Source: Alphaproteobacteria bacterium (GTDB lineage Bacteria > Pseudomonadota > Alphaproteobacteria > Reyranellales > Reyranellaceae). From it: a DNA stretch of 44,746 bases. Of the stretch, positions 32,119-35,564 are shown piece by piece (position 1 is the first letter of the stretch; every line of letters begins with the position of its first letter). A program made the position numbers and the translations under genes. The DNA is taken from the NCBI GenBank assembly GCA_016870115.1, contig VGCH01000025.1, positions 1 through 44,746 of the forward strand. Direction: 5' to 3'. The notes beneath the pieces were generated by a model, which did not search any database, was not told the DNA's origin, and worked only from the letters and a program-made list of their open reading frames with translations.

Positions 32119-32889
32119 TCAGTTGCCGATGGTGACGCCGCCGTCGGCCACGATGGTCTGGCCGGTGATGAAGCGGCCGGCGGGACCGGCGAGCAGGACG
32201 GCGATGCCGCCGATATCGTCGGGATCACCGATCCGCCGCAGCGGCGTGGCCGAGTTGCGGCGCTCGAGGTTCTTCGGGTCCTCCCACAGCGCGCGCGCGA
32301 AGTCGGTCTTCACCAGCCCCGGCGCGATCGTGTTGATGCGAATATTGTCCACCCCCAACTCGGTCGCAAGATTGCGGGCAAGCTGCATGTCCGCCGCCTT
32401 GGAGATGCCGTAGGCCCCGATCACCGGCGTGCCGCGCAGGCCGCCGATCGAGGAGACGATGATGATCGAGCCGTCCTTCTTCGCCCGCATATCCGGCAGC
32501 ACCATCGTGGTCAGCCAGATGTTCGAGAGAATGTTGTTCTGCATGATCTTCATGAAGGCCTCGTCCGGCATCTTCTCGGTCGGGCCGTAGTACGGGTTGG
32601 ACGCCGCGTTGCAGACCAGCACATCCACCGGTCCCAGCCGCTTGCGCGTCTCGGAGATCAGCGTCTGGCACTGCGCCTTGTCCGAGATGTTGCAGGGGAT
32701 CACGATCGCCTCGCCTCCGGCCGCCCGGATCTCCGCCGCCGCCTCCTCGCAGACCGGCGCCTTGCGGCTCGACACCACCACCCGCGCGCCCTGCAGCGCC
32801 AGATGCATGGCGATCGACTTGCCGATCCCCTTGCTCGAGCCCGTCACCACGGCAACCTTGCCGGTGAGATCGAAAAGCGGTGAACCCAT
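32119..32889 (-). CDS. SDR family oxidoreductase (upstream of the ligAB cluster)
   Basis: A 256-residue short-chain dehydrogenase. TGSSKGIG is at 16-23, and CNAAS replaces NNAG at about 93-97. Catalytic residues are S147, Y160 and K164 (YGISK). The serine/arginine pair after strand 2 (VVVSSRK) suggests NADP. The ATG at 32889 follows GGGAGAAA. It is the first enzyme gene of the leftward aromatic-type set and overlaps the HTH gene upstream by 46 bases. It differs clearly from the three tandem SDRs at 25.7-28.0 kb. Confidence 0.9.
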   Translation of the reverse strand: MGSPLFDLTGKVAVVTGSSKGIGKSIAMHLALQGARVVVSSRKAPVCEEAAAEIRAAGGEAIVIPCNISDKAQCQTLISETRKRLGPVDVLVCNAASNPYYGPTEKMPDEAFMKIMQNNILSNIWLTTMVLPDMRAKKDGSIIIVSSIGGLRGTPVIGAYGISKAADMQLARNLATELGVDNIRINTIAPGLVKTDFARALWEDPKNLERRNSATPLRRIGDPDDIGGIAVLLAGPAGRFITGQTIVADGGVTIGN

Positions 32890-33842
32890 CGTCGTTTCTC
32901 CCTGAAGAATTGGCACCGGCTGCCGCCGGGACCTTGCCCTCCCCTGTCGCAAGGCCAGCGCCGCGAGGCAAGCCCGCGGATGGCGACCCGGATTCGGGTT
33001 CGTTCGCGAACGACGCCATCGCGCCCAAGTCGTTGGAATCCGCGACCATTCCTTCGATAGGAACCCTGTCGCCCATTCCCGGCCACGAGAAGAGCCGATT
33101 CCGCGGCCGCGAGACGACGCCGCATCTGGATCAGCTCAAGCTCAAGAAGAGCCGCGCGGTCGTTGCCAACCGGGGTGACCAGCGGGGTCACTTGAGGAAC
33201 GGACTCGGAGGCGGCGGCCGGCCGGACGGCGCCGATCGCCCGGGCGACGCCGCGCTCGATCGCGGCCTCCAGCTCGCGGCGGCGGATGGCGCGATCCTCC
33301 GCCCGATCGAAGCGACCCAGCACGCGCATCAGCATGATGTCGTTGTAGCGCTCGTCGTTGGCGATCAGGTTGCCTTGGTGGAAGACCGGCTTGCGCACGA
33401 CGGCCGAAGCGCGCTGCTCGGCCAGTTCCTCCAGCATTTCCCGTCGGCGGCCACGGGCAGTCTCAAGCCGAGCCGCGAATTTCGGCAGTTTCTCACGCCA
33501 ACGCTGGACGGTCCGAACGGCGACGCCGGCGCGGGCCGCCGCCTCGACCATCATGCCGGTCCGCTCGTAGCAGCGCAGAAAGCGGGTCCGCAGCCGGGCC
33601 GGCGTCGGTCGGCGCAGCGGCTTCTCCCACGGCCCCGTCCCGCTTTCGGCGATCAGATCGGAGGGCGGAGGCGGCATCTTGAGCTGGCGTTCGGAGAACA
33701 GCTCTTCCCAAGCCTGCATGAAGAGTTCACCGCGCGTCAGCGAGGAGAAACAGGGCGGCGGCGGATGGTCCGGCGCCTTGAAGCGCAGGTGGTACACCGC
33801 CTCCAGCGCGGTCATCGGCTCGTGCCACTTCTTGTAGATCAT
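32844..33842 (-). CDS. HTH protein resembling phage terminase small subunits
   Basis: A 332-residue protein of uncertain role. Residues 84-118 form a helix-turn-helix (RFLRCYERTGMMVEAAARAG then VAVRTVQRWREK). It is followed by KPVFHQGNLIANDERYNDIM and LMRVLGRFDRAE, a pattern seen in HTH proteins related to terminase small subunits. Flanks are low-complexity. The C-terminal 80 residues look unnatural (arginine-rich), and a different frame below 33076 reads better, so a frameshift is possible. AGGAG five bases upstream supports the start. The last 46 bases overlap the SDR gene. It may be a DNA-binding regulator or a phage remnant. Confidence 0.6.
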   Translation of the reverse strand: MIYKKWHEPMTALEAVYHLRFKAPDHPPPPCFSSLTRGELFMQAWEELFSERQLKMPPPPSDLIAESGTGPWEKPLRRPTPARLRTRFLRCYERTGMMVEAAARAGVAVRTVQRWREKLPKFAARLETARGRRREMLEELAEQRASAVVRKPVFHQGNLIANDERYNDIMLMRVLGRFDRAEDRAIRRRELEAAIERGVARAIGAVRPAAASESVPQVTPLVTPVGNDRAALLELELIQMRRRLAAAESALLVAGNGRQGSYRRNGRGFQRLGRDGVVRERTRIRVAIRGLASRRWPCDRGGQGPGGSRCQFFREKRRWVHRFSISPARLPW

Positions 33843-33873: not shown

Positions 33874-33903
33874 GATATATGCTTATTATCGTCCGATTGT
33901 CAA
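33874..33903 (-). promoter_or_regulatory. Predicted sigma70-type promoter of the HTH gene
   Basis: On the minus strand a perfect TTGACA (33903-33898) is followed 18 bases later by TATATC (33879-33874). This short stretch is unusually AT-rich for the window. It drives the HTH gene and probably the SDR-to-ligB cluster behind it. Confidence 0.6.
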
Positions 33904-34015
33904 ACTCGGCATGAGCCTGCTGTCGCTGGCGAAGGACCTTAGCTGGCAGGCCGGCTTACCCTCGGCGGGACGGCCTGTGGTATGCTCGCGGATCGCTCGC
34001 TCGGAGACCCACCGC

Positions 34016-34447
34016 ATGTTCGACAGAAGGACCCTGCTGCAAGGCGGCCTCGCGGCCGTCGTGGCATCGACGCTGGCTGGCGCGGCCAAGGCCCAGGCCG
34101 GCAAACCGACTCTCGTCTTCCTCGGCCACGAGCTTTGAGGCGGCTGCAAGGTCTGGCGTGCCCAGTCTGAGCCTGAGCTTCTCAAGTCCGCGGCGTTCAG
34201 CAAGATCGACTATCACGTGGTCTATCCGGCCACGGGCGGTCTCATGATGGCCGAGGCCAGCTGGCCCGCGGCCGCGCAGCCGGTCCGCGTCGCGTTCATG
34301 GAAACCGACGACTACAAGAACCGCCCCTACGCCCCACCGCGCTTCATCCTGGCGCAGGACGGCAAGATCGTGCTGAGCGCGGTCGGCAATAGCGGCTGGA
34401 GAGAGCGCATGTGGCCGCGCATCGCGGAGATCACCGGGACGGCGTAA
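34016..34447 (+). CDS. Exported thioredoxin-like selenoprotein (Sec at in-frame TGA)
   Basis: A 143-residue protein if the TGA at 34136-34138 is read as selenocysteine (U41). Residues 1-28 are a signal peptide with a twin-arginine-like start (DRRTLLQ) and cleavage near AKAQA. A first beta strand (PTLVFLGHEL) leads into U-G-G-C, a CxxC-type redox motif with Sec at the nucleophile position and C44 resolving. A cis-proline segment APPRFIL (P108) and QDGK follow, as in thioredoxins. The downstream frame stays open for 102 codons to TAA and reads as normal protein. GGAGA at 34003-34007 supports the start. A SECIS-like hairpin follows the TGA. The alternative is a Cys-to-stop pseudogene. Confidence 0.82.
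34142..34173 (+). promoter_or_regulatory. Candidate bacterial SECIS element
   Basis: Just after the TGA the mRNA can fold as an interrupted stem GGCU/AGCC, C-G, GG/CU and CUGG/CCAG, topped by the five-base loop CGUGC (34157-34161). The loop has G in its second position and starts 18 bases after the TGA, inside the usual 16-37 base window for bacterial SECIS. An overlapping alternative fold (34142-34162) exposes AGGUCU, the same loop I recall for E. coli fdhF, but only about ten bases from the TGA. Confidence 0.6.
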
Positions 34448-34458
34448 CGGCGCGGCGC

Positions 34459-34491
34459 GCGACGAGTCCGAACGGAGCCGCGACTCGTCGC
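34459..34491. terminator. Hairpin between convergent genes
   Basis: A perfect ten-base inverted repeat (GCGACGAGTC / GACTCGTCGC) with a 13-base loop fills the gap between the selenoprotein gene and the convergent MBL/rhodanese gene. No T-run follows, so termination strength is uncertain. Confidence 0.5.
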
Positions 34492-35564
34492 TACCCCGCG
34501 CCACCCTGCACGGCGCGGCCTTCGGCGCGCCAGCGCAGCATGCCGCCGGGCAGGTTGGCGAGGTCGGTGATCCCCACCTTCTGCAGGATCGACACAGCCT
34601 GGACTGAACGACTGCCGGCGCGGCAGACGCAGACCACGGGGCGGTCGCGCGGCACCTCGCCCGCCCGGGCAGCGAGCTCGCCCAGCGGCAGAAGACGTGC
34701 GCCGGCGATGTGGCCCAACGGGCCGGCGAACTCGGCCGGCTCACGGACATCGAGGACAGTGACCTCACCCGGATGCTCCTCAAGCCAGTGCGGCTCGATC
34801 TCCCAGACGCCGCCAAAGGTGAAGTTGAGCGGCGCCCAAGCGGGATCGGCGAGGATCGCGCCCTCGTTGTCGGGCCGTCCGCAGCGCAGGTTTGCCGGCA
34901 CCGCCTGATCGATCAGTTTCGGATGGGGCAGCGCCATGTTGCGCATGAAGCCGGCGAAGTCGGCCTCGCCGATTTCGCCGCCCAGCCGCGGGTTGAAACG
35001 CTTTTCTTCGGCGACGCTGGTGACGGTGAGGCCGCGATAGTCGTGCGCGGGATAGAGCAGACACTGATCGGGCAACGAGAAGAGACGCGCGCGTACCGAG
35101 CGATAGAGCATTCGCGCGTCGCCTTGCTGGAAGTCGGTGCGGCCCGAGCCCCGGATCAGCAGGCAATCGCCAGTGAAGGCCATGGTCTCGTCGTCGAGCA
35201 CATAGGACAGGCAGCCGTCGGTGTGGCCGGGCGTGGCGCGCACTTCCAATGCGCGACGGCCGAAGGCGATGACATCGCCGTCGGCCAGCGCAAGATCGGC
35301 GCCAGCGGCTTTCGCGGCGGCGGCGACCGCGATGCGGCTGCCGGTGCGCTGCTTCAGGAGCCAGGCCCCGGTGACATGGTCGGCATGGACATGCGTCTCC
35401 AGCGTCCAGGTGAGCGTGAGACCGAGCTCGGCGAGAAGCGCGCGGTCGCGGCGCACCTGCTCAAACACCGGGTCGATCAAAACCGCCTCGCCTGAGGCGC
35501 GGTCGCCCAGAAGATAGGTGTAGGTCGAGGAGACGGGATCGAAGAGCTGACGGAACACCAGCAT
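34491..35564 (-). CDS. MBL-fold persulfide dioxygenase fused to rhodanese domain
   Basis: A 357-residue two-domain protein. The N-terminal metallo-beta-lactamase domain resembles ETHE1 persulfide dioxygenase. THVHADH (57-63), H114, D133 and H174 supply the metal site, and GSGRTDFQQGD is typical of the ETHE1 branch. The C-terminal rhodanese domain (about 262-350) has its catalytic loop CRAGSRS with C314. Such fusions couple sulfur transfer from thiosulfate or persulfide with glutathione persulfide oxidation to sulfite. It converges on the selenoprotein gene, so any link between them is by neighbourhood only. Confidence 0.88.
   Translation of the reverse strand: MLVFRQLFDPVSSTYTYLLGDRASGEAVLIDPVFEQVRRDRALLAELGLTLTWTLETHVHADHVTGAWLLKQRTGSRIAVAAAAKAAGADLALADGDVIAFGRRALEVRATPGHTDGCLSYVLDDETMAFTGDCLLIRGSGRTDFQQGDARMLYRSVRARLFSLPDQCLLYPAHDYRGLTVTSVAEEKRFNPRLGGEIGEADFAGFMRNMALPHPKLIDQAVPANLRCGRPDNEGAILADPAWAPLNFTFGGVWEIEPHWLEEHPGEVTVLDVREPAEFAGPLGHIAGARLLPLGELAARAGEVPRDRPVVCVCRAGSRSVQAVSILQKVGITDLANLPGGMLRWRAEGRAVQGGAG

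Follow-up and report, generated by a model that had tools for sequence, protein, structure and literature searches.

A predicted exported thioredoxin-fold selenoprotein with a Sec-Gly-Gly-Cys motif, conserved within one bacterial family

The locus at positions 34016–34447 (+ strand) of the window, the whole 44,746-nt stretch of DNA analysed here, is predicted with high confidence to encode an exported selenoprotein with a thioredoxin fold. The reading frame opens at an ATG (34016) with a ribosome-binding site, GGAG, placed 9 nt before it (34003–34006, + strand), reaches a single in-frame TGA at codon 41 (34136–34138, + strand) after the residues GHEL, and then continues through 102 sense codons to a TAA at 34445–34447. 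Read through the TGA it specifies 143 residues with selenocysteine (Sec, U) at residue 41, and the sequence around this residue is GHEL-U-GGC-KVWRAQSEPEL. An earlier note on this DNA had described an open reading frame with a ribosome site and a signal peptide that stops at TGA after HEL, and a continuation of 102 sense codons to TAA in the same frame; both descriptions agree with the window sequence, where the GGAG and an RR-type N-terminus are seen. Its placement of the TGA where a CxxC-type motif begins likewise holds, residues 41–44 forming U-G-G-C (34136–34147, + strand) with the same codon used in the orthologues. GGAG-like motifs are visible by eye in front of many orthologues and are missing in a few (e.g. 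locus L037).

Taken alone, the open frame after the stop is weak evidence, because at a G+C content of 67.7% base composition gives a chance of about 0.10 that 102 codons stay open. Judged by sequence comparison, it is the conservation of the TGA-containing frame across genomes, not its open length, that exceeds chance. The window's own genome (G000) and 100 relatives were searched (G numbers denote genomes and L numbers loci). Matches were obtained in 61 of the 101 genomes: every one of the 61 members of the window's bacterial family (f1) matched, and the 40 genomes outside it did not. In 55 of these 61, own genome included, the gene is full-length and its frame is interrupted by a single TGA and no other stop, this TGA standing at the equivalent codon within the motif UGGC, and the 54 other UGGC genes are 50–65% identical to the window gene; the family members without a UGGC gene are G001, G010, G025, G035, G037 and G053. 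Adding one UAAC gene (L069) and six UGPC genes brings the Sec-type genes to 62. The aligned set of 60 consists of the 55 UGGC genes, L069 and the UGPC genes L063, L064, L070 and L071, with L123 and L124 added later, and TGA occupies the site in all 60 and in both additions.

The six UGPC genes (the four named above, L123 and L124) form a clade of distant Sec-type relatives, found in six genomes of the family and located elsewhere than the UGGC gene. L069 (2244–2702) is a second, divergent Sec-type paralogue in G027, which also carries a UGGC gene. A further match, with three TGA codons (contig C2 of G025, L125), was not hit by the UGPC queries. Across the relatives and the class and phylum samples searched, the close family was seen in one bacterial family only. 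Of 385 genomes sampled from the class, 11 gave a match, and six of these lie outside the home family (best E 1e-16, no internal stop); of 398 sampled from the phylum, 6 did, four of these again from beyond the home family (E 1e-4 to 6e-4). At most 10 candidates were scored per genome in both samples. Scanning genome contigs with the single window protein gave no relative; with the family alignment it gave two loci, those of G037 and G044 that were already in the set, and a plasmid search gave no match.

By codon comparison, the part of the protein encoded after the UGA is under purifying selection, with a median dN/dS of 0.27 over 946 pairs drawn from 44 ungapped UGGC genes. Apart from the TGA, the aligned Sec genes contain no stop before the terminal one, which answers the earlier note's concern that many disruptions in other isolates would point to a pseudogene. 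That the locus is a pseudogene or a sequencing error, namely a Cys gene with a TGC-to-TGA change that is untranslated past the stop, is scarcely credible: the same genome does hold a decayed Cys copy (L058), but the identical TGA codon recurs in 55 genomes in frames that stay open to the terminal stop and are constrained after the TGA, and in L058, which really is decayed, the lesions lie away from the site of residue 41 and that site has a Cys codon.

The column of residue 41 holds Cys in eight homologue rows and in two more (L128, L129). Ser stands there in 34 rows, all paralogues, and 32 of these share a locus with a Sec gene; one distant row (L072, by eye) has Arg. The Ser paralogues (SxxC; L004 1014–1442 and rows on 33 further loci) retain Cys44 in 32 of the 34 rows, this second Cys being lost as well in L005 and L019. 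The Cys forms comprise CGFC (L059), CGQC (L058) and other CxxC rows. In G037 the syntenic slot is occupied by L059, which is intact. L058 (2595–3020, contig C22 of G000) is a copy in the EF-G/msrP slot of the window's own genome; two lesions break it, one in a run of G close to its start and the other an in-frame TAG. Random or absent residues at this position had been named beforehand as a mark of a pseudogene; with TGA in 62 Sec-type genes and otherwise Cys, Ser and a single Arg, the column reads, on the alignment, as exchange between Sec and Cys, together with a single duplicate lineage that carries Ser. In the full tree (midpoint root) the Ser rows and both Cys copies are placed among Sec rows. 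In a thinned 54-row tree, from which L072 was left out, many of these forks are unresolved and L066, an outgroup Cys row with a branch of 3.3, falls inside the group. An AU test did not reject the alternative in which the UGGC genes fall on one side (p 0.089). Because the thinned tree is less resolved and because of this AU result, conversion of Sec to Ser and of Sec to Cys is called likely and nothing stronger.

Shortly after the UGA lies a SECIS-like hairpin (34153–34165, + strand) with the stem CUGG/CCAG, a 5-nt apical loop CGUGC and 18 nt between the UGA and the loop. Section 5 of PMC13188914 describes bacterial SECIS elements by an apical loop of 3–9 nt, an upper stem of 4–16 bp, a spacing of 16–37 nt, a G at loop position 1 or 2 and a minimum free energy of −7.5 kcal/mol or lower; the window hairpin lies within these limits, its G being second in the loop and its stem having the minimum of 4 bp. 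The first 45 nt after the UGA of the window gene fold at −12.4 kcal/mol, while the stem-loop alone is weak (−3.2 kcal/mol). Among the 62 Sec genes every such fold is at or below −7.5 kcal/mol, and the hairpin is part of the minimum-energy fold in 51, with another structure in 11. An Rfam search over 33900–34600 at E ≤ 10 returned one match only, far under its gathering score.

All four stem pairs are possible in 60/60 Sec genes, compared with 8/33 Ser genes (33 of the 34 rows, one fragment being too short) and 0/8 Cys genes. The four pairs are invariant across the 60 aligned Sec genes and so yield no covariation signal; in the later addition L124, pair 15–27 is broken and by eye the stem goes on with G-U and C-G pairs. 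Codon choice over the hairpin is frozen. The Arg codon at +7 is CGT in 62/62 Sec genes, against 2 of the 32 Arg codons at that position in the Ser paralogues; at other positions of the Sec genes CGT accounts for 47 of 496 Arg codons, and CGC is the commonest. The Ala and Gln codons of the hairpin are GCC and CAG without exception in the 55 UGGC genes, and choice resumes at the next codon. Frozen codons also occur outside the stem, at Val −5 (GTC in 52/52), Lys +4 and Ile +5. The comparison with the Ser paralogues is the better guide to these patterns, because Fisher tests ignore relatedness.

The genome also holds the selenocysteine machinery. The earlier note had proposed a check for selA, selB, selC and selD, and all four were found above curated cut-offs: selA (526.8 bits), selB (443.8) and tRNA-Sec (72.3) on contig C19, and selD (287) on C34. 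Contig C19 also carries a second Sec-type gene, fdhA, which encodes the formate dehydrogenase alpha subunit and has one in-frame TGA. Within the family, tRNA-Sec scores at least 68 bits in 60 of 61 genomes, versus 4 of the 40 others, and a full, split or large partial selA is present in 51 of the 55 UGGC genomes. The four with no substantial selA match (G033, G034, G047, G054) are all drafts of 240–770 contigs, and G033 is also without a strong tRNA-Sec.

These data bear on a second explanation, according to which the UGA is a functional stop that yields a 40-residue peptide only, or is passed by near-cognate readthrough without Sec insertion. Low-level reading of UGA by tRNA-Trp occurs in bacteria, and the base following the TGA is G in 60/60 aligned Sec genes; this G may be a context effect, or no more than the first base of a Gly or Ala codon. 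However, the homologues have Cys rather than Trp at the site, the codon falls at the nucleophile position of a thioredoxin, the Sec machinery is in the genome, and, unlike the Ser paralogues, the Sec genes show frozen synonymous positions across the hairpin. We therefore consider a functional stop very improbable.

An AF2 model built from 99 aligned rows, paralogues included, has a mean pLDDT of 87.4, with values of 92–98 per block over residues 31–143 and low values before residue 31. According to this model the mature part is a thioredoxin fold, in which U41 stands just before a long helix (residues 42–57) and Pro108 is conserved. The codon of this proline lies at 34337–34339 (+ strand), and the residue is invariant in the 99 rows, as expected of the thioredoxin cis-Pro that the earlier note had pointed to in APPRFIL. 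Thioredoxins are at the top of the VIA-align comparison with solved structures (Z 9.8, rmsd 3.1, 91 residues). The TM-scores that Foldseek gives for thioredoxins are modest, at 0.39–0.49 by query length among the 50 matches listed. Model and structure matches refine the original description of a thioredoxin-like protein to that of a thioredoxin fold. Sequence profiles run against solved chains gave nothing better than E 0.04, and the window protein matched neither an NCBIfam model nor Pfam PF00085 (Thioredoxin) at E ≤ 1. Over the 99 members, the best NCBIfam match was to the PedC/BrcD disulfide isomerase family (E 0.001, in six members), and Pfam at E ≤ 0.1 gave Thioredoxin_7 in 11, Thioredoxin_2 in 2 and Thioredoxin in 1 (E 0.0092), with best E values of 0.0026–0.0092.

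Residues 1 to about 28 (34016–34099, + strand) would form a twin-arginine-like signal peptide with a putative cleavage site at its end, in keeping with the low pLDDT before residue 31. An RR pair lies within the first eight residues in 55/55 UGGC genes, and the Pfam TAT_signal model matches the window protein below cut-off (E 0.086) and 28 of the 99 members at E ≤ 0.1. The signal peptide proposed before is in keeping with these data, and what had been given as either Tat or Sec export looks more like Tat.

Several catalogued UxxC selenoproteins are similar in design. In Table 1 of PMC13188914, the thioredoxin-like families Trx (PF00085), PF13098, SaoT (NF040730) and the HUIPC-motif family (NF047660) likewise place Sec first in a CxxC-type motif, and share with the window protein the thioredoxin fold, a hairpin just after the UGA and Cys homologues. 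They differ in that no NCBIfam model claims the window protein; the families given there only as Pfam or cd entries were compared by profile or motif alone, because the table gives motifs and no sequences. No UGGC motif is listed in this table (119 families by the paper's text), many of whose entries give only UxxC, and none of the nine new families in Table 3 of the deep-Sep study (PMC12013277) is named as thioredoxin-like. The UGSC-containing selenoprotein NF041046 has a similar four-letter motif but is absent from the matches of the 99 members at E ≤ 0.1. The periplasmic thioredoxin SoxS of Paracoccus pantotrophus (3d4t, 3dml), which is not known to be a Sec protein, has the same fold and is exported (Z 9.6 and 9.5), but it shares 14–18% identity with the window protein and its Z-scores are tied with those of many ordinary thioredoxins. 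The open-licence literature searched held no report of selenocysteine in Reyranella or Enhydrobacter, or of a UGGC selenoprotein. With its TGA conserved, the machinery present and no NCBIfam family claiming it, the gene very probably encodes a new, uncatalogued family of exported thioredoxin-like selenoprotein, in line with the first reading of an exported selenoprotein of an unrecognised family.

We propose that, under the direction of the small downstream hairpin, SelB and Sec-tRNA(Sec) would insert selenocysteine at the UGA of codon 41 and so give the 143-residue precursor. The twin-arginine-type signal would then export this precursor, leaving a mature thioredoxin-fold domain with the active site Sec-Gly-Gly-Cys. 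Its selenolate would most likely attack an oxidised sulfur (a disulfide, a sulfenic acid, perhaps a peroxide or sulfoxide) on extracytoplasmic proteins, and Cys44 would resolve the resulting intermediate, forming a selenylsulfide that a membrane thiol relay would reduce again. A DsbD-like protein is present and could supply the electrons. The protein may be an exported selenol-disulfide oxidoreductase that serves in extracytoplasmic protein repair.

The gene neighbourhood in relatives points towards a possible partner. At 54 loci in 54 other genomes, an EF-G-like gene lies upstream of the Sec gene in 52 and msrP downstream in 51, on the same strand wherever found; two of the three loci without msrP end at a contig edge and one is without it in the flank examined. 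The distance from the Sec gene to msrP is about 14–1272 nt, even where intervening genes come and go, and a DUF962/Mpo1-like gene lies downstream in 28 of the 54 loci. MsrP was identified in one representative (L050) by NF003767, at 394.7 bits against a cut-off of 207. None of the EF-G-like, DUF962 and msrP genes occurs within the 44.7-kb window, and the MsrP link therefore rests on the relatives. Since the old slot in the window's genome holds the broken Cys copy, the Sec gene of this genome has probably been duplicated, moved or transferred while the Cys copy decays. The window gene itself converges with a gene on the − strand (34491–35564) for an MBL-fold hydrolase with a rhodanese domain (PF00753, PF00581), whose NCBIfam matches are all below cut-offs. 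Upstream of it, also on the − strand, is a 332-residue frame (32844–33842) that looks helix-turn-helix-like by eye and has no Pfam or NCBIfam match at E ≤ 0.001.

In the known MsrPQ system MsrQ is the electron donor, and we know of no thioredoxin-like or selenium partner of MsrPQ. A general replacement of MsrQ by the selenoprotein was considered and rejected, because 33 of 37 same-family genomes have a Ferric_reduct protein (PF01794) above cut-off, three of these proteins looking MsrQ-like by eye. In the window's genome PF01794 gives no more than a sub-cut-off match, to a protein that is cytochrome b561-like by eye, and it has no match in G001, G003 and G029. MsrPQ is a system of the E. coli periplasm, as described in PMC9302797, and msrP is the usual downstream neighbour of the Sec gene in relatives. 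This adjacency suggests a role in the repair of oxidised extracytoplasmic proteins, and we hold such a role beside MsrP tentatively, its chance of being right coming close to even.

It is a serious possibility, although we would not call it probable, that the exported selenoprotein has a job unrelated to MsrP, for example SoxS-like thiol chemistry of periplasmic sulfur, with the EF-G-like and msrP genes as accidental neighbours. SoxS is among the best structural matches, level with thioredoxins, the gene next to the Sec gene in the window is that of the MBL-fold/rhodanese protein on the opposite strand, with msrP missing from the window, and the EF-G-like protein has no redox role. Moreover, the above-cut-off Ferric_reduct proteins imply that MsrP needs no new donor in those 33 genomes. 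Such accidental proximity must nevertheless account for msrP lying downstream on the same strand at 51/54 loci.

Returning to the role beside MsrP, a more elaborate version is rather unlikely but worth stating: the Tat-exported selenoenzyme and the molybdenum enzyme MsrP would constitute a selenium-dependent module that repairs oxidised proteins outside the cytoplasm, and tandem duplication would have produced the Ser paralogue, which is without the nucleophile, is kept intact and perhaps serves as a partner for binding or holding.

The gene very probably represents a selenoprotein family that gene callers treating UGA as a stop would break in two or miss. With one site occupied by Sec, Cys or Ser in close relatives, and the full hairpin possible in 60/60 Sec genes versus 8/41 Ser and Cys genes, the family offers a compact natural experiment. 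If the association with msrP in relatives reflects function, it would tie selenium to extracytoplasmic protein repair in a way that can be tested.
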